Shown one piece after another: positions 3,166 to 35,631 of a stretch of 41,056 nt of DNA. Under the pieces are notes generated by a model. That model was not told the DNA's origin. It made no database searches and worked only from the letters and a program-made list of their open reading frames with translations. The stretch's first letter is position 1. The number at the start of each line of letters is the position of its first letter. Both the position numbers and the translations under genes were made by a program. This stretch comes from Clostridiales bacterium. Lineage in GTDB: Bacteria; Bacillota; Clostridia; Caldicoprobacterales; UBA3941. The stretch spans positions 1 to 41,056 of the forward strand of contig JAAYGY010000080.1 in NCBI GenBank assembly GCA_012735575.1. Reading direction: 5' to 3'.

Positions 3166-3182
3166 TTTATATAGCTATTCCA

Positions 3183-5432: not shown

Positions 5433-5474
5433 CTCTATTCCTCCTTTGTAGTTAGAATCTATACTATGGATTTA

Positions 5475-8348: not shown

Positions 8349-8363
8349 AGTCAAGTCCCCCCC

Positions 8364-9371: not shown

Positions 9372-9513
9372 ACTACCGCCCCCATCCAATAAGTATAATT
9401 ATTTGATTTGTTATTATGAATAGACAGAAATGCAATCTAAACCTAATTATACTACATATCTATTAACAATAAAAGGTTGTTTTTTATATAGGCAGTTTTT
9501 TACTAAAAATTTC

Positions 9514-9560
9514 AAGGCGAAGAGCCTGTAAACTTGTTGAGCTGACAAGGTCTTCGCCTT
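9514..9560 (-). terminator. Terminator after the GH42 gene
   Basis: A 10-bp stem (AAGGCGAAGA / TCTTCGCCTT) with a 27-nt loop is followed on the minus strand by GAAATTTTTA. It separates the GH42 gene from the adaptor-permease-GH2 unit. Confidence 0.7.
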
Positions 9561-9592
9561 CTATTCATTGGTTCTACAGAATATCTTTACTC

Positions 9593-11659
9593 TTACCTGA
9601 CAGGTCTTTTTAAAATTCTCAATCCATAAGCTGGTAGTGTGATTTCTCCTTTGACCTGGCCTCCATCTATCATGTCGGTTAATTCCTCATCTCCCAGGTC
9701 AACAGTTCTTTGATCACCGGCAAAGTTCATGACAAAGATGAAATCATTATCTCCATCGCTTCGTTTTTGGGCTGTTACACCTTCAGGCAGGTCTATATCC
9801 AGTACTCTTTGAATATCTAGGTCCTCTATTAATCTGCCGTAGAAATCGGACAAGAAGTCATCCCCGCTTCTAAAAGCTATATAGTAGCACTTACCCTTGC
9901 CAAACTCATTGACTGTAAGTGCAGGTCTTCCTGCATAGAAGTCCTCTTTGTAGGTGGCAAGAACCTTTGCAGTTTCTGCATGGATAAGATCACACAATTC
10001 TACAGTCTTGTATTCCTTTTCCAGCTTTAATGGATTGTCTTTGTCAAATACGGCATAGTTATAATCCTCATCATAGAGAGCATCTATCTCTTCACTCCTG
10101 ATACCTGTCACCTTGCGCAATGGCCCAGGGAATCCTCCCAGGAAGCATAGATCATTTTCATCTACTATACCACTCCAATAGGTGACTATCAGGGTCCCAC
10201 CTGATTCTACAAACTTCTCCATCCGCTCAGCTACTCCCGGTCTTACCATATAGAGCATAGGAGCAATTAATAGCTTGTATCTGGAGAAATCACAATCCAT
10301 ATTTATAACATCTACTGGAATTCCACGTTTCCAGAATGCCTTATAATGCCGCTCACAGGTTAGCTGATAATCCTTTTTCTCACGGCGTGGCCCTTGAGCA
10401 TCATCTATAGCCCAGCGGTTCTCCCAGTCATAGATTACCGCCACTTCAGGTCTAACAGTGGTACCCACCACATCATCCAGTTTCTCTAAAATCTTGCCCA
10501 CGTCCGCCACATCTCTAAATACTCTTGTATTTTCATTTCCAACATGGTCCACTACTGCACCATGAAATTTTTCTGAGGAACCACGGCTTTTACGCCATTG
10601 GAAATACTGTACCGAGTCAGAACCATGAGCTACTGCCTGGATTGATGATAATACATGCATTCCCGGTCTTTTTAACTTGGCTACAGGCTGCCAGTTAGTG
10701 GCACTTGGGGTGCTTTCCATAAGCATAAAGGGCTTTCCGCCTTTTAAGGAACGGTTTATATCATGAAGGAATGCTGTGCTACATCCCACTTCCCAATTAT
10801 CCTTGCTGTGCCACATGGGATAGCTGTCCCAGGATACTACATCCATATGGGGAGCTAGTTTCCAGTAATCCAACCCTGGATAGGTTCCCATGAAATTAGT
10901 TGTAACAGGAATATCCGGAGTAATTTCCTTTAGGGTGGCAATTTCATGCTTAAAGAAATCCAGTGTCTGATGGGTTACAAACCTCTTCCAGTCTAGATTA
11001 TGGCCGTGAACCAGGAATTCACCATGAGGAGCCGGTGATTCTATCTGAGACCAGTCGGTATATGTATGGCTCCAGAAAGCTGTCCACCAGGCATGGTTTA
11101 ATTTATCCAGATCATCGTCATATTTTTCCCTTAACCAGTTTCTAAAGGCCTCCTGGCAAAGCTCACAATGACATTCACCACCGTATTCATTGGACACATG
11201 CCAGAGAACAAGAGAGGGATGATTTCCATAACGCTCTGCTAGTTTTGTATTGATAATTCTGGTTTTTTCCCTATACACTGGGGAGGTGTAGCAATGATTG
11301 TGACGTGTACCATGAAGATTTCTGCGCCTGTTGGCCTGTACCCTTAAAACCTCTGGATACTTGGCAGACATCCATGCAGGTCTGGCACCTGTAGGTGTGG
11401 CTAATATGACATAGGCATTATTTTTATAGAGCTTTTCCATAATCTCATCCAGCCAGCCAAACTCAAAGCGGCCTTCTTCCGGCTCTAAAGCTGCCCAGGC
11501 AAATATGCCCACAGACATGCTGTTGCTATGAGCCAGTTTCATCAATCTCATATCTTCGTCCCATACCTCAGGAGTTCTCATCCATTGATCCGGGTTATAG
11601 TCTGCCCCATGGATCATATGTTTTACCTTGTGATGAATAGGAGGATACTTCTTAACCAT
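9593..11659 (-). CDS. Beta-galactosidase, glycoside hydrolase family 42
   Basis: A 688-aa GH42 enzyme, typical length for LacA/BgaB-type cytoplasmic beta-galactosidases. HVSNEYGGE carries the acid/base Glu158 and FMLMESTPSATNW the nucleophile Glu315. Cys123 plus the cluster CHCELC (Cys163, 165, 168) match the structural zinc site of the family. A TIM barrel (to about residue 385), a trimerisation domain and a small C-terminal beta domain (ITLPAYGLRIL) follow in family order. The ATG has AAGGTGG upstream. A terminator isolates it downstream and an AraC regulator lies divergently upstream. Together with GH2 and GH4 it makes this a galactoside locus. Activity on galactan-derived oligosaccharides rather than lactose is possible. 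Confidence 0.92.
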   Translation of the reverse strand: MVKKYPPIHHKVKHMIHGADYNPDQWMRTPEVWDEDMRLMKLAHSNSMSVGIFAWAALEPEEGRFEFGWLDEIMEKLYKNNAYVILATPTGARPAWMSAKYPEVLRVQANRRRNLHGTRHNHCYTSPVYREKTRIINTKLAERYGNHPSLVLWHVSNEYGGECHCELCQEAFRNWLREKYDDDLDKLNHAWWTAFWSHTYTDWSQIESPAPHGEFLVHGHNLDWKRFVTHQTLDFFKHEIATLKEITPDIPVTTNFMGTYPGLDYWKLAPHMDVVSWDSYPMWHSKDNWEVGCSTAFLHDINRSLKGGKPFMLMESTPSATNWQPVAKLKRPGMHVLSSIQAVAHGSDSVQYFQWRKSRGSSEKFHGAVVDHVGNENTRVFRDVADVGKILEKLDDVVGTTVRPEVAVIYDWENRWAIDDAQGPRREKKDYQLTCERHYKAFWKRGIPVDVINMDCDFSRYKLLIAPMLYMVRPGVAERMEKFVESGGTLIVTYWSGIVDENDLCFLGGFPGPLRKVTGIRSEEIDALYDEDYNYAVFDKDNPLKLEKEYKTVELCDLIHAETAKVLATYKEDFYAGRPALTVNEFGKGKCYYIAFRSGDDFLSDFYGRLIEDLDIQRVLDIDLPEGVTAQKRSDGDNDFIFVMNFAGDQRTVDLGDEELTDMIDGGQVKGEITLPAYGLRILKRPVR

Positions 11660-11760
11660 CAGTCTTCCACCTTTCCTTTTATTAATATAAATAGTAAGTT
11701 TATAACCTTATACCTATGATTTGCTTTGCAGGGAAAAGGAAATAAAACATTTTCCTGTAT

Positions 11761-11788
11761 ATTATGCCATCTTGCAATTTACCAACAA
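11761..11788 (-). promoter_or_regulatory. Candidate promoter of the GH42 gene
   Basis: Minus-strand TTGTTG (11783-11788), a 16-bp spacer and CATAAT (11761-11766) resemble a sigma-A promoter about 100 bp upstream of the GH42 start. ATATTGAYAT repeats lie just upstream. Confidence 0.4.
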
Positions 11789-11814
11789 TGCATATATGAT
11801 TATGATATATAATT

Positions 11815-11888
11815 ATATTGATATTATATATTATACAATTTGCTATATCAATCTTACTATATTGACATAGATATAAACATATTGACAT
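11815..11888. promoter_or_regulatory. ATATTGACAT repeats, probable AraC-type operator cluster
   Basis: ATATTGACAT occurs exactly at 11859-11868 and 11879-11888, start to start 20 bp apart (two helical turns). A variant ATATTGATAT is at 11815-11824, and an inverted relative lies near 11844-11854. Direct repeats spaced two turns apart are the usual AraC-family site. The cluster lies between the GH42 gene and the divergent AraC gene. Confidence 0.5.
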
Positions 11889-11915
11889 TATTCCTGCTGG
11901 AGGTTTGATGAAAAA

Positions 11916-12755
11916 ATGATTAAAACAATATTCCCCATGGTTACAGAAAATCAACACAAACTACCCTTTGTAGTAAAAGGCATAGGAGTGCAGGCAAATC
12001 AGGAACACATACTAAGATCCAATGGTTTTCCACACTATCACTGGGCTCATTGTGGTGATGGTGAAGGCAAGCTGATAATTGGAGGAAATGAATATAAAAT
12101 TACTCCCGGTACTGGTTTTTTCTTTAGACCTGGCCTTCCCCATGAATATTATCCAATAGAGGAGCCCTGGCAGATATATTGGCTAATATTTGATGGAGCC
12201 GCTCTGCCCAAGCTGCTTTCCTATATGGATTTTCCAGAATGGGGGATTATGAATATACAAAACATGGCCATCATCAATAATAGTCTTAAAAAGATATATA
12301 TGTGCTTAAACTCTGACAATCCGGATAAGCATTTAAAATCCTCAGCATTATTATATGAATTCCTGATAGAATTAAAAAACTCCACCCTTTGGTCAGGTGG
12401 AGTTCAAAATGAAAAAGTTCTGCAGTTGCTGCCGGTGATTTCCCATATGGAAAACAACTATGACAAATATTCCTCTTTAGAGGAAATGGCAGATATTATT
12501 GGTGTAACCCCATATCATCTATGCCGCTTGTTTAAACAAGCCTTTCACCTAAGCCCATTTAAATATCTCACACGTCTTCGAATTCAAAAGGCAAAGGAGT
12601 TACTGGTTTCTTCTCCAGATATGAGTATAAAGGATATAGCCAGATCTACTGGCTACAGCGACCCTAGCTATTTTTGTTCAGTGTTTAAGGAGCATGAAAA
12701 ACTAACACCTCTAGAGTTTAGAAAGATGCATGGTTTTGTACAATTTTTTACGTAG
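11916..12755 (+). CDS. AraC-family transcriptional regulator (probably of the GH42 gene)
   Basis: A 279-aa AraC-type regulator. The N-terminal cupin domain includes HYHWAHCGDGEGKLIIGG and FFRPGLPHEYYP. The C-terminal double helix-turn-helix spans about residues 180-275 (LEEMADIIGVTPYHLCRLFKQ and IKDIARSTGYSDPSYFCSVFKE, then TPLEFRKM). The ATG lies 12 nt after GGAGG, a longer gap than usual; a nearer ATG at 11908 stops after two codons. Divergent placement suggests control of the GH42 gene and its own transcription through the ATATTGACAT repeats. Its 3' end overlaps the convergent MATE gene by 8 bp. Confidence 0.88.
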   Translation: MIKTIFPMVTENQHKLPFVVKGIGVQANQEHILRSNGFPHYHWAHCGDGEGKLIIGGNEYKITPGTGFFFRPGLPHEYYPIEEPWQIYWLIFDGAALPKLLSYMDFPEWGIMNIQNMAIINNSLKKIYMCLNSDNPDKHLKSSALLYEFLIELKNSTLWSGGVQNEKVLQLLPVISHMENNYDKYSSLEEMADIIGVTPYHLCRLFKQAFHLSPFKYLTRLRIQKAKELLVSSPDMSIKDIARSTGYSDPSYFCSVFKEHEKLTPLEFRKMHGFVQFFT

Positions 12756-14148
12756 CTTTTTCAGCAGTTCTGAGACGGGCGATGGCCTTTTCCTTCCATG
12801 GTCCTTTTAGATAATAGCTTGCAGCTATAACAATACCTAATACCCAGCCTATAGGATAGCTGAAATATAGGTTGGCTCCTCCAAAGTAATGATCCAAGAT
12901 ATAGGCTGCAGGTACCCTTGCCAGCCACATGGAGATTAAAGACCCAATCATTGGAACAAAGGTTTCTCCCGCACCTCTAAGAGCACCATTTAAAATAAAC
13001 AATATACCTAGTAGAAAATAGAAGGGTAAAACCCTGTTTAGGTACTGGACCCCTGCCTCTATTACCCCAGGATCCTGGCTAAACAACCTCATAAGCAGAC
13101 CTCTGATGGGCATCAAAATAACGGCTATGCCAAGAGATACTCCTATGGTTAGCATTAGAGCAGATTTTACACCTTTATTTACCCTGTCCCTAAGGCCCGC
13201 ACCAATATTTTGTCCTACGTAAGTTGTAATAGCAGCAGAAAAACTAACCAAGGGAAGGAAGGCAAAGGCATCAATCTTTGTTGCACCATTAAAGCCTGCC
13301 ATAAAGATAGAGCCATGGCTGTTTATCAAACCCTGCAATGCTACAGATGCAAGTGAGAACAACAAATTCTGAATTCCTGTAGGTATTCCAATTCTAATGG
13401 CTTCCTTAAGGATATAGGCATCAAATTCCAAATTTCTTATGGATAATTGGAAAATATCCCCTCTTTTGTTTATATAATAAACACCAAATAAGAAGGAAAA
13501 TAACTGAGCCATAACCGTAGCCCAGGCTACACCGGCTACATCCCAGTGGAAAACTATAACAAATACCAAGTCTAAAACAATATTGACCACAGTAGAAATA
13601 ACCAAAAATAATAAGGGTCGTTTGCTGTCACCCAACCCCTGGAGTATACCACTGTTTATATTATATCCAAAACTTGCTAGTGTACCTATGAAAATAATAC
13701 GCATATAGGTAACGGCCATGGGCAGAGTTTCCGTTGGTGTTTTCATAAGAATCAGCATAGGACGGCTGATTAAAACACCGATTATTGAGATAGGGATGGA
13801 TACTACAAACAAAAAAATGTAGACCGTATCTACAGCCCTCTTTACTCCACGCATATCATTGGCGCCATAGTATTGTGATATTAAAATGGTGGCTCCCTGA
13901 CCAACTCCATTAAAAAGAGATATGATCATAAATATGACCGGAAAAGCTGTACCTACGGCAGCTAGAGCTGCGGTACCATTAGCTGCAAAATTACCCACCA
14001 CCATGCTGTCTACCATATTATATAATTGCTGCAATATATTCCCTGCTAGTAAGGGTAGTGCAAAAAAAAGAATAAGACGGGTAGGATTACCCTTAGTCAT
14101 ATCAATTCCTGTTGATCTTTTGTTTTCTTTTTTAGTGACCTGCGCCAT
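12748..14148 (-). CDS. MATE-family efflux transporter
   Basis: A 466-aa polytopic membrane protein with about 12 helices and two MatE repeats. The first repeat carries PLLAGNILQQLYNMVDSMVVG and GQGATILISQYYGA; the second carries TTYVGQNIGAG and RVLPFYFLLGILFILNGALRGAGET. MATE proteins export cationic drugs or metabolites in exchange for Na+ or H+. The substrate cannot be told. The ATG follows AAAGGAG. It is transcribed away from tRNA-Ala as a single gene, and its stop codon lies inside the end of the convergent AraC gene with no terminator visible between them. Confidence 0.9.
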   Translation of the reverse strand: MAQVTKKENKRSTGIDMTKGNPTRLILFFALPLLAGNILQQLYNMVDSMVVGNFAANGTAALAAVGTAFPVIFMIISLFNGVGQGATILISQYYGANDMRGVKRAVDTVYIFLFVVSIPISIIGVLISRPMLILMKTPTETLPMAVTYMRIIFIGTLASFGYNINSGILQGLGDSKRPLLFLVISTVVNIVLDLVFVIVFHWDVAGVAWATVMAQLFSFLFGVYYINKRGDIFQLSIRNLEFDAYILKEAIRIGIPTGIQNLLFSLASVALQGLINSHGSIFMAGFNGATKIDAFAFLPLVSFSAAITTYVGQNIGAGLRDRVNKGVKSALMLTIGVSLGIAVILMPIRGLLMRLFSQDPGVIEAGVQYLNRVLPFYFLLGILFILNGALRGAGETFVPMIGSLISMWLARVPAAYILDHYFGGANLYFSYPIGWVLGIVIAASYYLKGPWKEKAIARLRTAEKAT

Positions 14149-15933: not shown

Positions 15934-16108
15934 CCTCCATCCCTAAAGGACGGAGGTTATCCGCGGTACCACCTTAATTAGCTAAAATAGCTCACTCGTC
16001 ACATAACGGCCTAGTCGCCGGCAAGGAATACTTATATTTCATCCCTGCTGCTCCGGGGCGGGTTCGGAAAATCCTACTATTCCCCTTCATAGCATTTAAT
16101 ATTCGTTT
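15934..16108 (-). promoter_or_regulatory. T-box leader (tRNA-Pro sensing) with terminator, upstream of proS
   Basis: The conserved T-box AAGGTGGTACCGCGG lies at 15961-15975 (minus strand). It is followed by a terminator (CCTCCGTCC / GGGATGGAGG, 15934-15956, then ATTTTT) that competes with the antiterminator, as in transcriptional T-box riboswitches. A short stem III (AGCTA/TAGCT) precedes it. The specifier element appears reduced to one small hairpin at 16055-16085: GGGG/CCCC closing stem, an AGUA-containing left strand, GGA/UCC cap, and a right strand GAA-CCC. CCC is a proline codon in the place expected for the specifier. Uncharged tRNA-Pro(GGG) would permit read-through into proS. Confidence 0.88.
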
Positions 16109-16568: not shown

Positions 16569-17537
16569 TTAATATTCTCTTTTTTCCAGTTCCATTACCA
16601 GATCCCCAAGATACTCCCTGGCCGGTATGTCCGGCAGAGATTTTAGGTTGTTTATAGCCCTGGTTATGTAGCGATTCGCCAGCTTTTTGGAATAGTCCAT
16701 AGCCCCACTCTCCTGAACCCATCTTTGAACACACTTGAGTTCATCATGGGTAAACCGTCCAGTTTCAACTATTCCCTTTAGTTTTTTCTTATAGTAGGGA
16801 TCCTGTGCAGTATAAATAACAGGTAGTGTAAACACACCACTGGCAAAATCGGCCATTAAAGGTTTACCCACTATCTCAGTATCTCCCTCAAAATCCAAAA
16901 TATCATCTACTATTTGAAAGGCCATGCCTACATTTTTTCCAAATTGCCAAAGATTCCAGGTATCTCTGGATGAACATCCGGACTCCTCAGCTCCAACTCT
17001 ACAACTTAAAGAAAATAACAAGGCTGTTTTTCTTGCTATACGCTTTAAATAAGTATTGACACTAATATCCAAGTTATATCTGTGCTGGTATTGATCTATC
17101 TCTCCTTCACATATAGCTTTCAACACATTAGATAATTTATGCATATTTTCTAATTCCACATTTTGTGTAATCAAAGAAAAGGACCTGGTTAACAGAAAAT
17201 CACCGGTAAATACGGCCATATCCTTTCCCCATTTAGACTGGACAGTGGGAATCCCCCGTCGGATATCTGCATCATCTATTATATCATCATGAACCAGTGT
17301 AGCCATATGAAGTATTTCAATGCCCGCAGCAATAGGCATAAGCTTTTTCCTGTTATAATCTCCAAACTGACCTGACAGCAAAACCAATGCCGGTCTAAGT
17401 CTTTTGCCACCGGCATCAAGTAGCTCCTGCACGGTTTTTGACAGGATAGACTGTCTGGTTTTTAATGCTTTGCGTATATATTTTTCCACTTCCATCAGTT
17501 CATTGTAGATATCCGAACCCTCGTTCCAGATCCTCAT
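16569..17537 (-). CDS. dmkB: Polyprenyl diphosphate synthase (DmkB / heptaprenyl synthase component II-like)
   Basis: A trans-prenyltransferase of about 322 aa that elongates farnesyl diphosphate with isopentenyl diphosphate to make a quinone side chain. Both Asp-rich motifs are present: DDIID (84-88) in HMATLVHDDIIDDADIRRG and DDILD (211-215) in QIVDDILDFEGD. GKRLRP near residue 45 and the ARKTALLF region also match the family. The ATG at 17537 is 8 nt after GGAGG; a GTG one codon earlier and a TTG at 17552 are alternatives. It is the last gene of the apbE-eetA-eetB-dmkB run (27-nt gap). In Listeria this position is held by DmkB, which makes the prenyl chain of the demethylmenaquinone dedicated to extracellular electron transfer. 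A general isoprenoid role cannot be excluded. Confidence 0.88.
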   Translation of the reverse strand: MRIWNEGSDIYNELMEVEKYIRKALKTRQSILSKTVQELLDAGGKRLRPALVLLSGQFGDYNRKKLMPIAAGIEILHMATLVHDDIIDDADIRRGIPTVQSKWGKDMAVFTGDFLLTRSFSLITQNVELENMHKLSNVLKAICEGEIDQYQHRYNLDISVNTYLKRIARKTALLFSLSCRVGAEESGCSSRDTWNLWQFGKNVGMAFQIVDDILDFEGDTEIVGKPLMADFASGVFTLPVIYTAQDPYYKKKLKGIVETGRFTHDELKCVQRWVQESGAMDYSKKLANRYITRAINNLKSLPDIPAREYLGDLVMELEKREY

Positions 17538-17564
17538 CACTAAATCCTCCAATAACCTGTATCC

Positions 17565-18074
17565 CTAATTCCTTATCTCCAATTTTTTCTCAAGATAACC
17601 TAGTATATACCTGGTTACCAAACCATTAAAATAACCAGTTACAACAGCGGCCAACATAAGAACAGGTAAATAGGTATATAAAATTCCTATTGTCCCGAAT
17701 ATCCATGAAGCCGTTAACAGCTGCCCTATATTATGAAATACCGCCCCCGCTGTACTTATTCCCATAAGGGAGAAATAAATGTCAAGCTTTAGATATAGAA
17801 CAGACATTATAAATCCACTTAATATACCGCCTGACAGGCTATATAAAATTCCAGTTACGCTACCCCCCAGCAAAGGACCTAGCACAGATCTTATAACAAC
17901 CACTATCAAGGCTTCCTTAAAACCAAACAGCACCAAGGTTACCATGGTCATTATATTGGCCAGACCCAGCTTTGCACCTGGAGCCAACACTGGAATAAAG
18001 CTTTCTATATAATGTAAAACCAGAGCCTGGGAAATTATAATTGCCAGTATAGTTATCTTTCTTGTTTTTGTCAT
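17565..18074 (-). CDS. eetB: Gx transporter family membrane protein (EetB-like)
   Basis: A 169-aa membrane protein with about five helices, of the family once annotated heptaprenyl diphosphate synthase component I and now called Gx transporter, with ECF S-component-like character. Typical parts are PGAKLGLANIMTMVTLVLFG (about residues 32-51) and RSVLGPLLGGSVTGILYSLSGG (about 62-83). It lies between a NusG-II protein and a prenyl synthase with short gaps (18 and 27 nt), as eetB does in Listeria. EetB is needed for extracellular electron transfer there, but its biochemical role is unsettled. Confidence 0.85.
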   Translation of the reverse strand: MTKTRKITILAIIISQALVLHYIESFIPVLAPGAKLGLANIMTMVTLVLFGFKEALIVVVIRSVLGPLLGGSVTGILYSLSGGILSGFIMSVLYLKLDIYFSLMGISTAGAVFHNIGQLLTASWIFGTIGILYTYLPVLMLAAVVTGYFNGLVTRYILGYLEKKLEIRN

Positions 18075-18092
18075 AGACCCAAACCTACCACC

Positions 18093-18494
18093 TTATGAGG
18101 CTGTATCATCTACAGCATTGTCTCGTTGACTCTCTCCTATAATTCTAACCACTAATTTATGGGGAATACATACTATGGATTGACCCGGTTCCCTTATGAC
18201 AGGAGAACGAACGCAAAGTTTATCAGGACAATTAGCCTCTGTTACACTCACTCCTTGAGAGGAAATGCCAACAATATTATATCTTCCCTGTCCTGTATCC
18301 ACTCTAATCTCCTTAAGTTCTCCCTCTTGCTCTTCTTGCCACATTTCCACGGAATCTATAACTTCCCCATCCAATTCAATTTGAACCAAAAGGTTATTTC
18401 GATTACTACCCATGGTCTTAAGCCCCAAAAAACTAAGACCTATGAGAACTAATATAAAAACGTAGACAAAAATATCACCGATCTTTGGTTTCAT
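18093..18494 (-). CDS. eetA: NusG domain II protein, membrane-anchored (EetA-like)
   Basis: A 133-aa protein with one N-terminal membrane helix (about residues 8-27) and an extracytoplasmic NusG-II-like beta domain. The conserved core is CPDKLCV (Cys89, Cys94), followed by SIVCIPHKLVVRI (Cys109), as in the stand-alone NusG_II family. It has no link to transcription despite the domain name. The ATG lies 7 nt after GGAGG and starts 18 nt after the apbE stop. Gene order matches Listeria EetA, a membrane component required for flavin-based electron transfer whose precise role is not known. Confidence 0.85.
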   Translation of the reverse strand: MKPKIGDIFVYVFILVLIGLSFLGLKTMGSNRNNLLVQIELDGEVIDSVEMWQEEQEGELKEIRVDTGQGRYNIVGISSQGVSVTEANCPDKLCVRSPVIREPGQSIVCIPHKLVVRIIGESQRDNAVDDTAS

Positions 18495-18512
18495 CGATTT
18501 CCTCCACGACCA

Positions 18513-19577
18513 TCAGTCCACTATCCTGTAATTATCATTTGAAGGGATCAGGCTAGCCTTTAAACCTTCTGTTGTGTAGATTTCTTTATCCGTAGTAACA
18601 GCTATACCTTCTATATTATCAAGACCTTCTATTAATTTTAGGCCTTCCTCCCTGCCCATAACAAAAAGTATAGTAGAAAGGGCATCAGCATCAATAGATG
18701 AACTGGTAATAATGGTACAGGCTATCAAGCCCGCCTGAGCAGGATACCCGGTTCTGGGATCAAAGATATGATGGTATCTCTCTCCTGTTTTCTCATAAAC
18801 CTCTTCAATATATCTCTCATAATCCCCGGAACTAACAACGGTGGCATCTGTCACCCCGACTATGGTAAAATGGGGTTGCCCTGTCTCTTCAGTTCTGGGA
18901 TCCTGGATACCTATTCTCCAGGGCCTTCCATCTGGATTGGACCCTATGGTGATTACATTTCCTCCCAGGTTTAGCAGCGCACTTTCTACACCTGCCTCCC
19001 GCAGAATCCTAACTGCCTCATCTGCTGCAAACCCCTTGGCAATAGCGCCTAAATCTATACCCATGCCCTCATTCTCCAGGAATACAGTCTTTTTATCCTC
19101 GTCCAATACAACCTTATTATAGTCCACCAAAGCCAGCTTTTCCTCTATCTCTTCCTGGGAAGGCACCCTGGGCTTGTCCGATGTAATACCCCACAGCTCT
19201 ACTATAGGCCTTATGGTTATATCCAATGCGCCATTGCTAAGCTTTCCATACTCCACAGCCTTCTTTATTACATAAAATGTATCATCATGCACCTTAACAG
19301 GCTCTACTCCTGCTGCTTTATTGATCTTGACTACATCGCTGTCCTTATGGGTAGAGCTCATATGACTTTCTATCTCTTTGATTCTGTCAATAGCCTTATT
19401 CATAGCTTTTTTGGCAGACCTGTCCCCGTAAACCCTGAAGGTCATCACTGTATCCATGGCAAAAAAGCTCTTGTCATGCTGCCCTTGGGTATTTGAAATA
19501 CAGCCAGAAACAAGAAATAATACCAATATTAATACAATTAAAACAGCAAAAAACCTTTTTATTTTATTCCTCTCCAA
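18513..19577 (-). CDS. apbE: FAD:protein FMN transferase, lipoprotein (ApbE / FmnB-like)
   Basis: A 354-aa ApbE-family enzyme that attaches FMN from FAD to a Thr/Ser of exported proteins. It has a lipoprotein signal (LVSGC, Cys26), so it acts outside the membrane. Family marks are AMDTVMTFRV (40-49), GIDLGAIAKGFAAD (173-186), LLNLGGNV, HHIFDPRTGYPA (269-280) and SSSIDADALSTILFVMG, the last supplying the metal-binding Asp and Thr. The start is taken as the TTG at 19577 with weak GGTG upstream; no better in-frame ATG exists. Its likely substrate is the FMN-binding lipoprotein encoded just upstream, as FmnB acts on PplA in Listeria. Confidence 0.93.
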   Translation of the reverse strand: MERNKIKRFFAVLIVLILVLFLVSGCISNTQGQHDKSFFAMDTVMTFRVYGDRSAKKAMNKAIDRIKEIESHMSSTHKDSDVVKINKAAGVEPVKVHDDTFYVIKKAVEYGKLSNGALDITIRPIVELWGITSDKPRVPSQEEIEEKLALVDYNKVVLDEDKKTVFLENEGMGIDLGAIAKGFAADEAVRILREAGVESALLNLGGNVITIGSNPDGRPWRIGIQDPRTEETGQPHFTIVGVTDATVVSSGDYERYIEEVYEKTGERYHHIFDPRTGYPAQAGLIACTIITSSSIDADALSTILFVMGREEGLKLIEGLDNIEGIAVTTDKEIYTTEGLKASLIPSNDNYRIVD

Positions 19578-19675
19578 TGGTAAACACCAACTTTATACAA
19601 TTATATATTATTATAGTTCTATATCCTAATATATTACCACAGCCAAAGCTTTTAGGCTAGCTTTTCATAAAAACA

Positions 19676-19697
19676 GGCCTGCCTCAATTGGCAGGCC
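19676..19697 (-). terminator. Terminator after the pplA-like gene
   Basis: A perfect 8-bp GC-rich stem (GGCCTGCC / GGCAGGCC) with a 6-nt loop is followed by TGTTTTTAT on the minus strand. It makes the lipoprotein gene its own transcription unit, apart from apbE-eetA-eetB-dmkB. Confidence 0.88.
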
Positions 19698-19726
19698 GAT
19701 TTGTGCTTTAATTATCTTAAGCCTTC

Positions 19727-20305
19727 TTATTTTGCATCGCTTAATGCTTTCTTAACTAAATCTACAAATCCATTAACCTTGATAGTAACACCAGCTACGG
19801 CATCTGTTGTACCATCATCTTTAACATCGATAGCGTCTACGTCTTGCTTTTCTACTAGGAAAGTCTCAACTTTCTCAGCTTGCTCATGCCATTCAGCTAT
19901 AGCGCCACCTTTTTCAACCATACCGTAGTCTCCATCTTTGGATGCGGTCTTTTTATCCTTGCCCCCATCCTCAGCATCACTGTTCCAATCAACACTGGAT
20001 ATTTTACCATCTTTAACTTCGATGGTTACTTTATCTTTCCATCCATTGTGGAACTCATCTTGTTCAGCTGTATAAGTACCATCTTTTAGACCGGCATCAG
20101 CATCTGTGCCAGCATCGTCCTGAGCGTCATCTGCATCGTTTGCAGCATCATCCCCAGCATTATCAGCAGTATCATTTGCTGCATCGTTTGTATCATTAGT
20201 TGCAGGGGGCTGTGTTGTGTCTCCATCGTTTTTGCTTCCAGCACAAGCAGTGAATACAGATACAACTAGTACCACCATAAGTAAAACACTGAGTAGTTTT
20301 TTCAT
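19727..20305 (-). CDS. pplA: FMN-binding-domain lipoprotein (PplA-like electron carrier)
   Basis: A 192-aa lipoprotein: signal sequence with Cys21 after VFTA, an Asp/Asn/Ala-rich linker (about residues 24-72) and one FMN-binding domain (about 73-192). The domain opens LKDGTYTAEQDEF and ends with the flavinylation site DAVAGVT (168-174), where Thr174 should carry FMN bound through phosphoester. The usual motif is closer to D-x-x-S-G-A-T, so Ala171 and Val173 are deviations. Listeria PplA has two such domains; this has one. It would carry electrons from the membrane quinone pool to extracellular acceptors. The ATG lies 12 nt after AGGAGG. A Fur-like palindrome sits in its leader. Confidence 0.85.
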   Translation of the reverse strand: MKKLLSVLLMVVLVVSVFTACAGSKNDGDTTQPPATNDTNDAANDTADNAGDDAANDADDAQDDAGTDADAGLKDGTYTAEQDEFHNGWKDKVTIEVKDGKISSVDWNSDAEDGGKDKKTASKDGDYGMVEKGGAIAEWHEQAEKVETFLVEKQDVDAIDVKDDGTTDAVAGVTIKVNGFVDLVKKALSDAK

Positions 20306-20342
20306 ATTAGATTGAACCTCCTATTTTATCTAATAATATTGT

Positions 20343-20394
20343 TTGTAATGATTACATCTTTATTTGTAATCATTCATTGACATTGCTAATTGTA
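20343..20394 (-). promoter_or_regulatory. pplA-like promoter with Fur-family-like operator
   Basis: A minus-strand -10 box TACAAT lies at 20389-20394, with a poor -35 about 16-17 bp upstream. Just downstream of the predicted start is a perfect 13-bp palindrome TGTAAT-G-ATTACA (20344-20356). Its core TAATnATTA is shared by Fur, PerR and Zur operators. A second, half-degenerate copy begins at 20365. The two together also form a 10-bp hairpin (20347-20374) in the leader RNA. Binding here would block transcription. Confidence 0.5.
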
Positions 20395-20623
20395 TCACAA
20401 TGCTCTTATTTGTTCATAAGGCATTATTAGCAAATAAAAGGCATTTCGCCATTGTTTTTATTTATAAACAACTTTATTTTTTTAAAACATATTATTTTAT
20501 ATTATTCCTTAAATTTCTTTAAATAATCACCTTATGCCCATTAAAAACGCTACTTTATTATATCTGATTTTTGTGATAAAATAGGCTTGATTTTTATATA
20601 TTATATATAGGAGGTACAAATTC

Positions 20624-22423
20624 ATGTCGACCAAACGCATCGTTATTCTGGGAGCGGGATACGGTGGCCTTCAAGCTGCCAAAACCCTTAATAAGCAGCT
20701 TAGAAAACATGACGACGTTGAAATAATGCTTATAGATCAGAATAACTACCATACTTTGCTTACCGAGCTTCATGAAGTGGCAGGCAATCGTGTTGAACCC
20801 AATGGGGTTAAGGTATCAATCGAACACGTTTTGGAATATACCAAGGTTCAATTTGTTCAGGACCAGATTGTAAAGGCAGATTTAAAGGACCGAAAACTTT
20901 ATTCCAAAAACCATGAGTATGATTTCGATTATCTCATCCTTGGTATTGGTAGTGAGCCGGCTTATTTCAACATTGAGGGCATGGAGGAAAATGCTTTCAC
21001 TTTATGGTCCCTGTCTGACGCTGTAAAGATCTACGATCACATTATCCATATGTTCCAGCAGGCTGTGGAAGAGAAAGATCCTGATAAGCGTAAGGAGCTT
21101 TTAACCTTTGTGGTAGGCGGTGGCGGATTTACCGGTGTAGAAATGATGGGTGAGCTTATCGAATGGACAAACACCCTGTGCAAACAATACAATGTTCCAA
21201 AAGAGGATATTCGCCTGGTTCAGGTTGAAGCCCTTCCCAACCTTTGTCCTATATTAGATCCTAAGCTAGTTGCAAAGGTGGAGAAATATCTTAAGAAAAA
21301 GGGCGTAGAAGTTTTGACCAACTCTCCTATTACCGCTGTTTCTCCTAATACCATGACCGTTGGGGAGGACCAAGTCATTCCTACCCGAACTGTAATATGG
21401 ACAGGCGGTGTCAAGGCTAAAGGCTTTGTCAAGGAACTAGGCATCTCTCTGGGTGCCAGGGATAGGATAGTGGTTAATGACTATCTCCAGACCAAAGAAT
21501 ATCCATATGTATATGCTATAGGCGATAATATGGAGTTTCAGGATAAGGACGGAAAGGTGTTGCCACCCCTGGTAGAGACAGCCATTCAATCCGCTGATTG
21601 TGCAGCCTATAACATAGCTGCCGATATAAAGGGCAGGGACAAGAAAAAGCTGGAAGCCAAACTCCATGGAGTCATGGTTTCAGTAGGTTCCTTCTTTGCT
21701 GTAGCACAGCTATCAGGTATGCCTTTCTTGTCGGGACTGCCGGCGACTATTATAAAGCATATGGTAAACATGCATTATCTCTTTGGCATTGGAGGACTGG
21801 AGCTTATATGGGAGTATCTGAACCATCAGTTCTTCCATAAGACCAGAAAATATAACTGGTTTGTAGAGACTGGAATAGGACATGTAGGACGAAGAAACTT
21901 TACCTTCTGGCTGGTACCCTTGCGTATCTGGCTGGGAGTTATGTGGCTGGTATCGGGTATCCAAAAGATACAGTCCGACTGGCTGGGCGATTGGGTACTC
22001 ATAGGCCTTTCAGGGGCCACAGATGCTACATCATCAGCTTCCATTACTCCCCTTGTAGGACCAAATTCCCCAGGCTGGTATGTAGCTATTGCGGAGAACA
22101 TAATTATGCCCAACGCATTGCTCTTCCAGAAACTTATCGTTATTACCGAAATTGGCCTGGGCCTTGCCTTTATATTTGGTTTCTTTACCTTTATTGCGGC
22201 CATAGTATCCATTGGTATGCATATTAACTTTGCTCTGGGAGCAGGCCTGCCTCAGACCAACGGACTTCCCGATCTTTGGTGGATTGCCGCATCCTTTTCT
22301 ATGTTTGCAGGTGCAGGTAGAGCCTTTGGAGTGGACTATTATCTTATGCCCTTCCTTAGAAATCAGTTGAGATACTTCCAGAAAAACAGAAGCATAAACA
22401 TACTAAAAGGTTGGAAATGGTAA
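20624..22423 (+). CDS. ndh2: Type II NADH dehydrogenase with C-terminal membrane domain (Ndh2)
   Basis: A 599-aa protein. Residues 1-400 are a non-proton-pumping NADH:quinone oxidoreductase: FAD motif VILGAGYGGLQAA (7-19), NADH motif VVGGGGFTGVEMMGE (about 162-176) and YAIGDN near residue 298. Residues about 425-585 form a DoxX-like block of about four helices (FWLVPLRIWLGVMWLVSGIQK; LIVITEIGLGLAFIFGFFTFI), absent from ordinary ~400-aa Ndh enzymes but found in the Listeria Ndh2 subfamily used for extracellular electron transfer. The ATG lies 8 nt after AGGAGGT. It is divergent from the pplA-like gene and monocistronic. It would feed NADH electrons to the EET-dedicated quinone. Confidence 0.93.
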   Translation: MSTKRIVILGAGYGGLQAAKTLNKQLRKHDDVEIMLIDQNNYHTLLTELHEVAGNRVEPNGVKVSIEHVLEYTKVQFVQDQIVKADLKDRKLYSKNHEYDFDYLILGIGSEPAYFNIEGMEENAFTLWSLSDAVKIYDHIIHMFQQAVEEKDPDKRKELLTFVVGGGGFTGVEMMGELIEWTNTLCKQYNVPKEDIRLVQVEALPNLCPILDPKLVAKVEKYLKKKGVEVLTNSPITAVSPNTMTVGEDQVIPTRTVIWTGGVKAKGFVKELGISLGARDRIVVNDYLQTKEYPYVYAIGDNMEFQDKDGKVLPPLVETAIQSADCAAYNIAADIKGRDKKKLEAKLHGVMVSVGSFFAVAQLSGMPFLSGLPATIIKHMVNMHYLFGIGGLELIWEYLNHQFFHKTRKYNWFVETGIGHVGRRNFTFWLVPLRIWLGVMWLVSGIQKIQSDWLGDWVLIGLSGATDATSSASITPLVGPNSPGWYVAIAENIIMPNALLFQKLIVITEIGLGLAFIFGFFTFIAAIVSIGMHINFALGAGLPQTNGLPDLWWIAASFSMFAGAGRAFGVDYYLMPFLRNQLRYFQKNRSINILKGWKW

Positions 22424-22441
22424 ATCAACCCAAAAACAAAG

Positions 22442-22467
22442 CGGTAGGCTAAACAGCCTACCGTTTT
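22442..22467. terminator. Bidirectional terminator between ndh2 and pflA
   Basis: A perfect 9-bp stem (CGGTAGGCT / AGCCTACCG) with loop AAAC is followed by TTTTATG on the plus strand and CTTTGTTTTTG on the minus strand, serving the two convergent genes. Confidence 0.88.
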
Positions 22468-22509: not shown

Positions 22510-23256
22510 TTATTCAGTTGTCTTTAGCTTTAGAGGCAGCCCCCGCTTTGCAAAGACTTCCTTGGCCTTGTCTACTTCCTCACTGCCAGGTACCGGGACT
22601 CCCTTTAAGGGGTATTCGTAACCCAGCTCCTCCCACTTATAGGCTCCCATATCGTGATAAGGAAGAATTTCCACCAGCTCTATATTGGGATAGTCCTGAA
22701 GCATTATAGCCAGGCGCTCCAAATCTTTGGGATCATCGGTGTAGCCGGGAATTATAACGTACCTGATCCATACCGGTTTACCTATTTCCCTAAGATGGTC
22801 TAAAAAGGTCAGTATCTTGCGGGTTCCTACTCCTGTTATCAGCCGATGTTTTTCCTCTACTACATGCTTTATACTCAGCAGTACCAGATCAGTAACCTCT
22901 AAAAGATCCCCCACCTTGTCTACATCTACAAAACCTGATGTATCCATGGTGGTATTAAGACCCATTTCCCGGACTCTGGCAAACAGCTCTTTGGTAAACT
23001 CAGCCTGCAGTACAGGATCGCCACCTGTGGCTGTGACTCCTCCTCCAGAGCGTTCTAAGAAATATCTATATTTACTTATATCCTCCACCAGTTCATCCAC
23101 GGTAACTTCTCTGCCTGCCTTGGGATCCCAGGCATCTCTGTTGTGACAGAAAATACACCTCAGAGGACAGCCCTGCATAAAGACAACGTACCTTATGCCT
23201 GGACCGTCCACTGTACCCATGGTCTCGATGGAGTGTATTCTACCCTTTATGCTCAT
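22510..23256 (-). CDS. pflA: Pyruvate formate-lyase activating enzyme
   Basis: A radical-SAM enzyme of about 248 aa that installs the glycyl radical on PflB using S-adenosylmethionine and a 4Fe-4S cluster. The cluster motif CPLRCIFC (CxxxCxxC) lies near residue 30, with GGGVTATGGDP and DTSGFVD following as in PflA. Length and order match E. coli PflA. The ATG at 23256 is preferred; an in-frame TTG at 23268 overlaps the pflB stop but sits too close to the AAGGGG site. Either way it is translated directly after pflB from the same transcript. Confidence 0.94.
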   Translation of the reverse strand: MSIKGRIHSIETMGTVDGPGIRYVVFMQGCPLRCIFCHNRDAWDPKAGREVTVDELVEDISKYRYFLERSGGGVTATGGDPVLQAEFTKELFARVREMGLNTTMDTSGFVDVDKVGDLLEVTDLVLLSIKHVVEEKHRLITGVGTRKILTFLDHLREIGKPVWIRYVIIPGYTDDPKDLERLAIMLQDYPNIELVEILPYHDMGAYKWEELGYEYPLKGVPVPGSEEVDKAKEVFAKRGLPLKLKTTE

Positions 23257-23264
23257 TTTTGTTA

Positions 23265-25493
23265 TCAAACCCCTTCAAAGAATGTTCTCCTAATAACATC
23301 CTCCTGTTGCTCTCTGGTTAGTTTTATAAAGTTAACAGCATATCCGGACACCCGAATGGTAAGCTGAGGATATTTCTCTGGGTGCTCCATGGCATCCAAT
23401 AGGGTTTCCCTCTCAAATACGTTAACATTCATATGATGTCCCATCTTATGGAAATAACCGTCCATCATGGCCACCAGGTTGCTGATCCTGGATTCCGTAT
23501 CACGGCCCAGGGCTTTTGGTACTATGGAGAAGGTATAGGATATACCGTCCTCAGCATACCTGTAGGGAAGTTTTGCCACTGAGCTAAGTGAGGCAATAGC
23601 TCCCTTTTTATCCCTGCCATGCATAGGATTTGCACCGGGTGCAAAGGGCTCTCCAGCCTTTCTTCCATCAGGGGTATTTCCAGTCTTTTTACCATATACC
23701 ACATTGGAGGTAATGGTCAGGATAGACAAAGTAGGTATGCTATTTCTATAGGTCTTTTGCTTTCTCAGCTTTCTCATAAAGTTCTCCACCAGAGAAACAG
23801 CAATATGGTCTACCCTTTGGTCGTTGTTTCCAAACATGGGGAATTCCCCATCAATCTCAAAATCTATGACCAAGCCTTCCTCATTTCGAATAGGCTTAAC
23901 CTTGGCATATTTTATAGCACTTAGAGAATCCACCACTACCGACAAGCCTGCTATACCACAGGCCATGGTTCTAAGTACTTCCATATCATGAAGTGCCATC
24001 TCCAAGGCTTCGTAGCAGTATTTGTCATGCATATAATGGATTATATTAAGGGCGTTAATATAGACCCTTGCCAGCCATTCCATAATCTGATCGAATCTCT
24101 CCATAACCTCATCATAATCCAAGTACTCTGAGGTAATGGGCTTAAATTGGGGTGTAACCTGTACTCCTGATATTTCATCTCTTCCGCCGTTTATAGCATA
24201 CAGCAGTGCCTTGGCCAGGTTTGCCCGAGCTCCAAAGAACTGCATTTGCTTACCCGTTCTCATAGCGGATACACAGCAGGCAATGGAGTAATCATCGCCC
24301 CACATGGGTCTCATTAAATCGTCGTTTTCATATTGGATTGAGCTGGTCTTTATAGACATCTTGGCACAGAACTTCTTAAAGTTTTCAGGCATGGACAGAG
24401 ACCATAATACAGTCATATTAGGTTCTGGTGCAGGTCCTAAATTGGTCAGGGTATGAAGGAATCTGTAAGAGTTTTTAGTCACCAGGGTCCTGCCGTCTAC
24501 GCTCATGCCACCAATGGCCTCTGTTACCCAGGTAGGATCACCACTGAATAGTTCATTATATTCCGGTGTTCTCAAAAAGCGTACCAATCTTAACTTTATA
24601 ACAAACTGATCTATTAACTCTTGTGCTTCCTCTTCGGTTAGGGTGCCCTCTGCCATATCTCTTTCAATGTAGATGTCTAAGAATGTGGATACCCTTCCCA
24701 GACTCATTGCTGCACCGTTTTGTTCCTTTACTGCACCTAAAAATGCAAAGTATAGCCACTGTACAGCTTCAAAAGCGTTCCTTGCAGGCTTGGAAATGTC
24801 ATACCCATAGCTTTGAGCCATAATCTTTAAAGCTTCCAGAGCCCTTATCTGCTCTGTGGTTTCCTCCCGCTGCCTGATGATTTCATCCTCCATCCAGGCC
24901 GTTTCAAGGAGGCCCATCTGCCTTTTCTTCTCCTGTATCAAGCGGTCTACACCATATAGAGGAACCCTACGGTAATCGCCTATTATTCTACCCCTGCCAT
25001 AGGCATCTGGTAGTCCGGTGATAATACCGGCACTTCTAGCCTTTCTTATTTCAGGGGTATAAGCATCGAAAACTCCCTGGTTGTGAGTCTTGCGATACTC
25101 TGTGAATACCTTTTCCACTTTAGGATCCAGCTTGTATCCATATGCCTCACATGCGTTTTTTACCATACGTATGCCACCAAAGGGCATGATAGCTCTCTTT
25201 AGAGGCTCATCGGTCTGAAGTCCTACAATAATCTCCAGATCCCTGTCAATATAACCAGGTCCATGAGAAGTAATAGTAGATACGGTTTCGGTATCTATAT
25301 CAAGAGTTCCGTTTCTCTTGTTCTCTTCCTGCAACAACTGAGAAGTCTTTTCCCACAGCTTTTTAGTTCTTTCAGTAGGTCCTGCTAAAAAGGAGTCGTC
25401 CCCTTCATAGGGCTTATAATTTTGCTGAATAAACTCCCTTACATCTATCTCAGTTTTCCAATATCCGTCGGAGAAATCTCTCCATGCATCCAT
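23265..25493 (-). CDS. pflB: Formate C-acetyltransferase (pyruvate formate-lyase)
   Basis: A 742-aa glycyl-radical enzyme converting pyruvate and CoA to acetyl-CoA and formate under anaerobic conditions. Both signatures are intact: the catalytic Cys pair in IACCVSAM (407/408 counting from 25496) and the glycyl-radical loop [10 protein letters not shown] near the C-terminus (Gly718). The CC pair and full length identify true PFL rather than glycerol or choline lyases. The ATG at 25493 lies 8 nt after AGGAG; a TTG one codon earlier is less likely. pflA follows immediately. With Ndh2 nearby, the cell has both a formate-forming route and an external electron sink. Confidence 0.96.
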
Positions 25494-25666
25494 CAAATCA
25501 TCTCCTTGTCTGTCTATTTTGCAATATTTTCTAAAGGCTTTGTAAAAGCCCTTATATTCTTGTAAACCAGGGGGACCCTTAGGTAATATTTATACCCCAC
25601 TAATTTTGTCGGAAAACATCAAAATTTGTACAATATATCTGCAATGCTATTTTAACCAAAATAAAA

Positions 25667-27466: not shown

Positions 27467-28528
27467 CTATGCTTCCTCAATAAAAGCCATGATATTTTCT
27501 ATTGGCACTTCAGGTTCCAATACATGAGTTGGCGAAAGAATCAAGGCACCATCATAGCCTATCTCCCTTTTTCTGGCTTTAATAACCTCCCTGACCTCAT
27601 CAGGTGTTCCAAAGGGCATTGTAGATTGGGTACCAATAGTACCATCTATTACTATATATTTCCCAAATTCCTCTTTAACACTTTTTATGTCCAGACATTC
27701 CGGTTGCACCGGGTTTAAAATGGTTACACCGATCTCTATTAGCTCAGGTATTATATCCCATATATTGCCATCACTGTGATACCAAATTTGTATATCGGGC
27801 TTAATCTTTTTTGCAGCCTGGTACACTGTCGCCCATCTGCACTTAATAAATTTACGCCATAACTCTGGAGAAAACATCAAATCTCTCTGATTGGCCACAT
27901 CATCACCAGTAACTAATATATCAACCCCGGCTTTAGCTGCAGCTATAGCCTTTTTTAGATTTCTCTCCATAATTTTATCCAATATAAAATGGCAGATTTC
28001 CTGATTACTTATCATATCCATTAAAAATTCCTGATAACCTCGAATTTGCCATGCATCCTCATACATATGGGTCAGACTGCAGCATGTAACAAGACCCTCA
28101 TGATGAGCTTTTTCCACCTTTTCTTTCATATTCTTATGGGTATAGCCTTCCACGTTTGGATATGGAAAATCTTCAATATCCTTTAATGATGATGCATTTC
28201 TAAGAGGGCTGATATAGCGGGTAAAGTGATACATACTACCTGGTATCTCCAATACCCCTAATCCGTTTATATATGCATTATCAGGGATTTCTATATCTGA
28301 AAAATAGGGACTAAAATCAGGTGGCTCAATATCAGATGCAGGTTCCATATTAACTTCAACCGGTGCATACATAGCAAAATATTTTCTTAGGCTTATGCCA
28401 TCATCTATATTTAATTCAGTCCTTATTCTTCTTTCCAATTCCGGTGTAAAATTTGCATAAAAAAGAAATTGATCATGTTCTTCATGTGCAATCGTTGCCT
28501 TAAATAATTCTAATTGAGTCAATGTCAA
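27467..28528 (-). CDS. Uroporphyrinogen decarboxylase-family protein (second of pair)
   Basis: A 353-aa protein of the URO-D superfamily (COG0407-like). The core parts are GVDILVTGDDVANQRDLMFSPELWRKFIKC and IWYHSDGNIWDIIPELIEIGVTILNPVQ, ending ALILSPTHVLEPEVPIENI as URO-D folds do. No other haem-biosynthesis gene is present, and such proteins next to sugar genes are usually not haem enzymes. Methyl transfer to a corrinoid or thiol is a family possibility, but the substrate is unknown. The start is a TTG 8 nt after GGGAGG. It is the last gene of a three-gene run with its paralogue and a membrane sensor. Confidence 0.8.
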   Translation of the reverse strand: MTLTQLELFKATIAHEEHDQFLFYANFTPELERRIRTELNIDDGISLRKYFAMYAPVEVNMEPASDIEPPDFSPYFSDIEIPDNAYINGLGVLEIPGSMYHFTRYISPLRNASSLKDIEDFPYPNVEGYTHKNMKEKVEKAHHEGLVTCCSLTHMYEDAWQIRGYQEFLMDMISNQEICHFILDKIMERNLKKAIAAAKAGVDILVTGDDVANQRDLMFSPELWRKFIKCRWATVYQAAKKIKPDIQIWYHSDGNIWDIIPELIEIGVTILNPVQPECLDIKSVKEEFGKYIVIDGTIGTQSTMPFGTPDEVREVIKARKREIGYDGALILSPTHVLEPEVPIENIMAFIEEA

Positions 28529-28608
28529 GACCTCCCGTGCCCCAAATCAGCCTATATTATTGAATTAAAAAAATAGTTTAAGTTGAATAGATATTAGTTA
28601 ATTAGCAG

Positions 28609-29724
28609 TTAATACTTTCCTAACTCTAAAGCAGCCTCAATGAAAGTTATATAGTTTTCTTCAGTTTTGGGTGAAAGGGGTACATTTATGGGACTAGCTG
28701 TGGGCATAATAACGTATCCTCCACCATCCTTTGCTGCCTCCATACATTCTTTCACCTGTTGGTATACTTCATCCCTGGTTCCGTTTTCAAGTAACTTTAA
28801 CTGTATATTTCCAAATATACACATTTTGCTGCCAATACGCTTCTTAACCTCAGCCAAAGTTATGTCACCATCAGGTGGCCCCTCGCATGGATCAATGGCG
28901 TCTGCTCCAGTTTCTCCTATCATATCCAATACCTTTTCTATTCTGCCATGGGAATGGATTCTGACCTTGCCACCATAGCTTTGGATCAGCTGTGTCATCT
29001 CTTTTACATAAGGGTATACAAACCATTGGAAATAAACTGGTGGTAAATAGGGTGGTGTCATATATTCTGGTCCCACAATGCGGTATAAGTCTACCACACC
29101 ACTCCTTAACATTGACTCCAGATTTGTCATGGTTCTATAATGTATTTCTTCCAAAGCTTTTTTAAAATGATCTGTTTCTGTAAGAGCCCAAACTGTAGCC
29201 TGACCAAACTCCATTAATTCCATTGCTGTACATACAGGATCGGCAACGGATGCCATAATAATTCCACGCTGGCCTACCTCTGATTTAATCCTCTCATAAT
29301 CACTATAATCATATGTGACCTTCTCATAAGGAACTGACAGGTAGGCATCTACATCATCAATATCCTTACACAAATGTTCAGTAGTCCATTGTGTATGAAC
29401 ATTATCAAATATCTGTATAGTTCTGCTAAGATCCCCCTTTGGGGTATGGAAAACTTCTCTTATTACCAAGTAATTATCTTTTCTATATCTATCCCTGGTA
29501 ACTTCAACCGGGTATGATGAAAGAGCTAAATTCTGGTTAGATGCAGGATTCCACATACATACACAATCAGTATATTCTCGTATAAAATCCATTAACCTCT
29601 TGTAAGAGGGCTCATTATTTTCAAATGCCAAGGAATTATATCCACATAGTTCATAGGTAGAAATGGGTACTCTATCCACAGGTTTTCTTTCTAATACTCT
29701 TAATAAACGCTCCCTTGAATTCAT
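28609..29724 (-). CDS. Uroporphyrinogen decarboxylase-family protein (first of pair)
   Basis: A 371-aa URO-D superfamily protein, paralogous to the next gene (80-nt gap). It opens MNSRERLLRVLERKPVDRVP, the classic N-terminal block of the family. VRIHSHGRIEKVLDMIGETGADAIDPCEGPP holds the His and Cys positions that bind zinc in the MtaA-type methyltransferase relatives, and the tail is GGGYVIMPTASPINVPLSP. No corrinoid protein is encoded nearby, so a methyltransferase role is only a possibility. The ATG follows AAGGTGATC. It starts 36 nt after the sensor chimera. Confidence 0.82.
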   Translation of the reverse strand: MNSRERLLRVLERKPVDRVPISTYELCGYNSLAFENNEPSYKRLMDFIREYTDCVCMWNPASNQNLALSSYPVEVTRDRYRKDNYLVIREVFHTPKGDLSRTIQIFDNVHTQWTTEHLCKDIDDVDAYLSVPYEKVTYDYSDYERIKSEVGQRGIIMASVADPVCTAMELMEFGQATVWALTETDHFKKALEEIHYRTMTNLESMLRSGVVDLYRIVGPEYMTPPYLPPVYFQWFVYPYVKEMTQLIQSYGGKVRIHSHGRIEKVLDMIGETGADAIDPCEGPPDGDITLAEVKKRIGSKMCIFGNIQLKLLENGTRDEVYQQVKECMEAAKDGGGYVIMPTASPINVPLSPKTEENYITFIEAALELGKY

Positions 29725-33621: not shown

Positions 33622-33738
33622 TCTCTATCCTCCTCTATTAAATCTTAATATTTCAAGATTTTAAGGAACAGTATTAACTATTATGGCAAATTCATTGTAT
33701 CGCCTGTTAATAATGTATTATTTAATAAGGATTCTATA

Positions 33739-33769
33739 TATAATGGGCTACTGCCTGTAGCCCATTATA
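33739..33769 (-). terminator. Terminator at the end of the xylA-xylB-thuA-gfo operon
   Basis: A perfect 13-bp stem (TATAATGGGCTAC / GTAGCCCATTATA) with a 5-nt loop lies 9 nt past the stop of the Gfo/Idh/MocA gene. The T-tract is weak. Confidence 0.75.
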
Positions 33770-33777
33770 AGTTCATA

Positions 33778-34872: not shown

Positions 34873-34884
34873 CTATATCACCCA

Positions 34885-35601: not shown

Positions 35602-35631
35602 GATGATTCCCCTCCTAAATTTATATATGTT

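Follow-up and report, generated by a model that had tools for sequence, protein, structure and literature searches.

The window analysed here is a contig of 41,056 nucleotides (JAAYGY010000080.1, assembly GCA_012735575.1) from a Clostridiales bacterium of the same order as Caldicoprobacter, and it carries, at 16569-22467, a gene cluster that is likely a locus of the flavin-based extracellular electron transfer (FLEET) type, i.e., one devoted to flavin-based electron export. Six open reading frames (ORFs) of the extracellular electron transfer (EET) set are open in the window, in the positions and orientations given by the original prediction (Table 1). Five of them form a leftward run from 20305 to 16569, in the order flavin mononucleotide (FMN) lipoprotein, apbE, eetA, eetB and dmkB, and ndh2 runs rightward from 20624; the right edge of the interval, 22467, coincides with the end of the convergent terminator that closes ndh2. 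The claim that these six genes form a Listeria-like EET set was borne out both by Pfam, where all six proteins exceeded the gathering score, and by matches to reference loci. The promoters of ndh2 and of the leftward genes should both lie in the divergent intergenic region.

Table 1 Features of the ndh2 locus and its adjoining genes in the window
Feature	Position	Strand	Basis
dmkB-type long-chain polyprenyl diphosphate synthase, 327 aa	16569..17552	-	PF00348, motifs
eetB, energy-coupling factor (ECF)-type substrate-binding subunit, predicted flavin adenine dinucleotide (FAD) exporter subunit, 169 aa, six helices	17565..18074	-	PF07456, fold
eetA, one N-terminal membrane helix and NusG domain II	18093..18494	-	PF07009
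apbE/fmnB, lipoprotein FAD:protein FMN transferase	18513..19577	-	PF02424, lipobox LVSGC
pplA-like FMN-binding lipoprotein, 192 aa, single domain	19727..20305	-	FMN_bind
divergent intergenic region, 318 bases	20306..20623		sequence
ndh2, type II NADH dehydrogenase with an additional DoxD/DoxX-like membrane part at the C-terminus, 599 aa	20624..22423	+	Pfam
convergent terminator between ndh2 and pflA	22438..22467		terminator scan
pflA	22510-23268	-	TIGR02493 above cut-off
pflB	23265-25496	-	TIGR01255 above cut-off

Reference loci were obtained by running the NCBI PplA model on 399 genomes of the class to which Paenibacillus macquariensis (G066) belongs. Five genomes exceeded the curated PplA cut-off, and their loci comprise dmkB, eetB, ndh2 and, divergently, pplA, fmnB and a menA-type gene, with eetA detected in four of the five (no eetA match in L192). 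The window proteins are 36-42% (Ndh2), 37-42% (ApbE), 32-38% (DmkB), 33-38% (EetB) and 28-32% (EetA) identical to their counterparts in this set. For Ndh2 the alignment reaches residue 582 with the C-terminal part included, and Pfam finds Pyr_redox_2 (139.3 bits) followed by DoxD/DoxX at the C-terminus, which agrees with the extra membrane domain originally proposed; residues 1-398 are covered by solved NDH-2 relatives (E 1.1e-75), and the C-terminal membrane part is of low confidence in the structure model. DmkB matches polyprenyl_synt (229.5 bits), carries the motifs DDIID and DDILD and scores 317.6 bits against TIGR02748 (HepT), below the cut-off of 456.55. The NusG_II match of EetA reaches 89.5 bits, and its membrane helix spans residues 5-23. 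ApbE (320.3 bits) has Listeria FmnB (7esa, E 3.4e-73) as its closest solved relative, and the catalytic residues of FmnB, Asp301-Ser257-His273 and Arg262 (PMC8906456), all align with identical residues in the window protein; this alignment uses a chain numbering offset of 20 by our reading, and one offset fits all residues.

Is this arrangement peculiar to the window genome, or is it shared by other lineages? The dmkB-eetB-eetA-apbE block with a divergent ndh2 is also found in C. oshimai (G009; L092), C. algeriensis (G006), Defluviitalea, Anaerobacterium, Acetivibrio and Ruminiclostridium, while the Lutispora locus has a different strand partition and the Halanaerobium locus contains dmkB and apbE, with eetA and eetB undetected. 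Among the 45 contig loci in which an ndh2 homologue is flanked by over 5 kb on either side, eetB, dmkB or apbE lies near ndh2 in 42, and eetA, eetB and dmkB occur together in 26; a chance assembly of the locus is therefore excluded. The eetA-eetB-dmkB order, which the original prediction likened to that of Listeria, is seen in the reference loci wherever eetA was detected, although there ndh2 heads the three genes, whereas the window ndh2 diverges from all five others. The published operational definition of FLEET (PMC8238504) asks for a type II NADH dehydrogenase that has a transmembrane helix and whose gene belongs to a flavinylation-associated cluster; it describes the window locus, in which Ndh2 with its C-terminal membrane part is encoded beside apbE and an FMN_bind gene, and orthologues of Ndh2, EetA, EetB, DmkB and FmnB stand in one cluster.

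Another important question is whether the locus encodes part of a flavin exporter, which the original prediction had declared missing from the window. This was mistaken: the PF07456 "Gx" protein (147.9 bits) is, by its modelled fold and by analogy with Listeria, EetB, a predicted flavin exporter subunit, and so the exporter part lies inside the window. The model (pLDDT, the predicted local distance difference test, 91.9) has the six-helix fold of ECF substrate-binding (S) subunits; its best fold match is Thermotoga RibU 5kbw (template modelling score 0.74, Z 15.8, root-mean-square deviation 3.0 over 162 residues), and ECF S-subunits fill the top rows of both fold comparisons. Listeria EetB is itself an ECF-S subunit that binds FAD and exports it for flavinylation (PMC9973259). 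The Pfam name of the family, a heptaprenyl diphosphate synthase subunit, was ruled out by the fold and by the Listeria work. The single ECF transmembrane (ECF-T) gene of the genome adjoins ECF ATPases. At ~4911-5115 of L037 (G000:C50) the ecfA1 frame is intact, and the ribosome-binding-like GGGGGGAGG is followed by ATA, none of ATG, GTG and TTG standing where the start is expected, which reflects either an unusual start or an assembly error.

The surface lipoprotein differs from a typical PplA. It matches FMN_bind at 28.5 bits (cut-off 22), and its closest solved relative is 2kzx (E 6.9e-41), whose site reads DAISGAT. Against the NCBIfam PplA model (NF041941) it scores 58.9 bits, where the curated cut-off is 325, with mainly the signal peptide and first domain matched. 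Its own flavinylation site, near residues 168-174, is DAVAGVT; siblings in the family have DTIAGVT and DAIAGVT; TGAT or SGAT is found in most of the remaining clostridial relatives.

With regard to the quinone, none of the window ORFs that were scanned was of the UbiA type, in agreement with the original prediction for a dmkA-type prenyltransferase, but a UbiA-type gene, a candidate MenA/DmkA gene, lies elsewhere in the same genome (G000:C30:127620-128336). In a set of 61 genomes, 27 of the 29 that have Ndh2 also have UbiA, against five of the 32 without Ndh2 (Fisher p 4.6e-10, relatedness uncorrected), a pattern seen inside and outside the order, and a menA-type gene stands at the ndh2 locus itself in L104, L125, L139, L152 and L158. 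The genome check that had been proposed for dmkA, flavin transport and synthesis of 1,4-dihydroxy-2-naphthoate (DHNA) thus gave the candidate DmkA-type gene and the predicted exporter subunit, but no DHNA synthesis marker; the marker searches covered MenD and PF02621 (MqnA/D), with menB, menE and mqnC outside them.

The flavin supply genes appear to have a second client. The genome holds two FMN_bind genes, the second being rnfG of a complete rnfCDGEAB-type operon on another contig than the EET locus, and the RnfG site is a canonical SGAT (QAISGAT). Since one ApbE and one EetB are all that the genome encodes alongside this operon, eetA, eetB and apbE of the locus probably also supply FMN to RnfG. 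The coupling of ApbE or EetB presence to Ndh2 was not significant, which is expected if both proteins also serve Rnf. Moreover, none of the four genomes of family f3 has Ndh2 or UbiA, and the f3 neighbourhoods L199 and L200 keep eetB-eetA-apbE next to proS, with dmkB, ndh2 and the FMN lipoprotein gone; family f3 is a natural separation of the flavin supply module from the NADH/quinone module.

Several findings weigh against assigning the locus to FLEET. The lipoprotein carries a single FMN domain, and its site departs at two positions from the consensus D-x-x-[S/T]-G-A-[S/T]; because it fails both this consensus and the family cut-off, we class it from its sequence as PplA-like and do not file it as PplA. 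In family f4 (L047-L050, L195-L198), ndh2-eetA-eetB-dmkB is kept, apbE lies elsewhere and no FMN lipoprotein is present at the locus; some of these genomes have two or three ApbE matches, and no off-locus FMN lipoprotein was found beside apbE in four neighbourhoods. No second ECF-T (FmnA) was found in the window genome, which is 96.3% complete and has a single CbiQ-family gene, and in Listeria EcfT did not replace FmnA for export (PMC9973259). The off-locus UbiA gene has 1,4-dihydroxy-2-naphthoate polyprenyltransferases as its best NCBIfam models, below the menA cut-offs. MenD was below the cut-off in 61 of 61 genomes, its matches falling so far short that they were taken as other enzymes dependent on thiamine pyrophosphate, and a futalosine route was rejected, as the sole PF02621 gene of the genome encodes a solute-binding lipoprotein beside an ABC permease. 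With no DHNA synthesis marker found, the quinone route would be incomplete without an outside supply, and because MenD was not found and the MqnA/D match is a transporter lipoprotein, DHNA is, by analogy with Lactiplantibacillus plantarum, probably taken up from outside. Iron reduction by that species depends on the addition of a quinone, for example DHNA (PMC8837199, PMC10746273), and has no need of dmkA or dmkB (PMC9888254).

On balance, the original picture of a Listeria-like locus that discharges NADH electrons outside the cell holds for the identity of the locus, by sequence, synteny and definition, and is corrected with respect to the exporter, the quinone route and PplA. We infer the following electron route. 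Ndh2 would oxidise cytosolic NADH and pass the electrons to a naphthoquinone, either demethylmenaquinone, made with the DmkB prenyl chain and the off-locus MenA/DmkA-type enzyme, or DHNA itself. EetB, together with the single set of ECF ATPases and ECF-T of the genome, would export FAD, from which the ApbE lipoprotein would attach FMN to extracytosolic proteins, namely the neighbouring surface lipoprotein, with an efficiency made uncertain by its AGVT site, and RnfG. The reduced flavoprotein could then pass electrons to ferric iron, flavins, humics or the acceptor of a partner, and NAD+ regeneration would thereby be freed from dependence on fermentation. A more specific proposal, in which a clostridial family runs a FLEET chain with a DxxAGVT surface flavoprotein, shares ApbE, EetB and ECF-T with Rnf and receives its quinone precursor from the community, is possible, if somewhat doubtful.

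Could the same genes serve another purpose? The lipoprotein site might not be flavinylated at all, so that the locus would work only via soluble shuttles (DHNA, riboflavin) reduced by Ndh2. An AGVT-type site occurs in every member seen of the window's family (f1), always off [S/T]GA[S/T] at two positions, and L. plantarum can reduce iron with riboflavin in the absence of PplA (PMC9888254). However, all members retain the Asp and the acceptor Thr, a natural site in L194, DAIAGAT, also has Ala at the Ser/Thr position, and an A-to-V change at this site position in another protein leaves ~50% flavinylation (PMC12052999); we regard the shuttle-only explanation as rather unlikely.

Given the evidence for Rnf, eetB, eetA and apbE could instead mainly mature RnfG, with Ndh2 and DmkB only reducing membrane quinone and no surface electron exit. 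Such a role would fit the single ApbE and EetB beside a complete Rnf operon with a canonical RnfG site, the persistence of eetA-eetB-apbE in family f3 without ndh2 and the occurrence of eetB beside Rnf in 572 Clostridia genomes (PMC9973259). It is nevertheless distinctly improbable in our view: Rnf is on another contig, whereas the flavin genes stand beside ndh2 and the FMN lipoprotein in many genera, a steady company that RnfG maturation leaves unexplained, and an Ndh2 without an acceptor would have no discharge route, no cytochrome bd having been found in 61 genomes. The lack of cytochrome bd also weakens an oxygen-linked role. Very improbable, finally, is a route in which the quinone pool fed by Ndh2 is drained by a different reductase, one for fumarate, sulfur or organic acceptors that may be flavinylated and extracytosolic, the lipoprotein being a carrier in between and not a reductant of minerals. 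Listeria EET does power a flavinylated fumarate reductase, as cited in PMC8238504, and a PF12831 FAD oxidoreductase is encoded at 39913-41040 in the window, unlinked to the locus, but the neighbourhoods read show no conserved reductase next to the locus; the genome search for reductases was limited to cytochrome bd.

Taken as a FLEET-type locus, the cluster adds one more member to a known system, set apart by its flavinylation site, its off-locus prenyltransferase and its probably shared flavin supply. It is not filed as a complete Listeria set, which comprises eight proteins (PMC8906456). With the FLEET system of Listeria monocytogenes (Light et al. 2018, as described in PMC9973259 and PMC8906456) it has in common Ndh2 with the C-terminal membrane part, EetA, EetB, DmkB, FmnB, an FMN lipoprotein and the eetA-eetB-dmkB order. 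In Listeria, however, ndh2 heads that order instead of diverging from the other five genes, and the lipoprotein has two TGAT-type sites instead of one domain with AGVT; the window also differs in its off-locus dmkA candidate, in that no second ECF-T (FmnA) was found and in that the MenD and PF02621 searches gave no sign of endogenous DHNA. L. plantarum FLEET is likewise without a complete DHNA route, and DHNA supply is therefore not defining for FLEET. That system (PMC8837199, PMC10746273) shares a fermentative host, a prenyltransferase (putative in the window genome) and prenyl synthase, an incomplete DHNA pathway and an outside quinone, but the window host is clostridial, has an Rnf complex and is only predicted to need quinone. 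In the EetB/Rnf flavin export clusters of Clostridia (PMC9973259), eetA, eetB and apbE also supply FMN to extracytosolic proteins, whereas in the window these genes lie next to ndh2, dmkB and the gene of the FMN lipoprotein, with Rnf encoded elsewhere. The ApbE-NosR module proposed for an iron-reducing Clostridium (PMC13134045) likewise offers fermentative Clostridia a flavinylation route from quinone to outside acceptors; it differs in its membrane NosR-like multi-FMN protein, and the accessible part of that paper describes no FLEET-type ndh2 locus.

Within the locus, a strong, near-perfect GC-rich hairpin (19676-19697), terminator-like on both strands, separates the FMN lipoprotein gene from apbE and may attenuate readthrough, which would yield lipoprotein in excess over transferase. 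A search for a Rex-type operator between the divergent genes gave one three-mismatch match, 20383-20400, and the window count (7 versus 4.9 expected) is at chance level, as was a promoter scan. The pyruvate formate-lyase genes noted originally, pflA and pflB, follow after the terminator in the opposite orientation to ndh2 and are neighbours outside the EET machinery. Caldicoprobacter does not share their adjacency to ndh2, which is however seen again within the genus, in a further genus of the family (G002) and in several f4 genomes of a second family, and this gives the proposed link of EET to pflBA modest support. Sugar-use genes at 682-14148 and 31501-38469 (GH4, GH2, GH42, GH3, an FGGY kinase and AraC regulators) are consistent with the saccharolytic host originally envisaged. 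Elsewhere in the window, a T-box leader (15943-16099, minus strand; Rfam RF00230, 102.1 bits) lies upstream of proS, and two adjacent URO-D family proteins (PF01208) are encoded at 27467-29724 (minus strand); in anaerobes, proteins of this family are often methyltransferases.

The altered FMN site of family f1 makes the sequence tolerance of ApbE testable. If the locus is active, it would give a group of anaerobic digester and thermophilic sugar fermenters an extracellular outlet for NADH electrons, with iron, humics, biochar or partner organisms as possible recipients and with quinones made by others.

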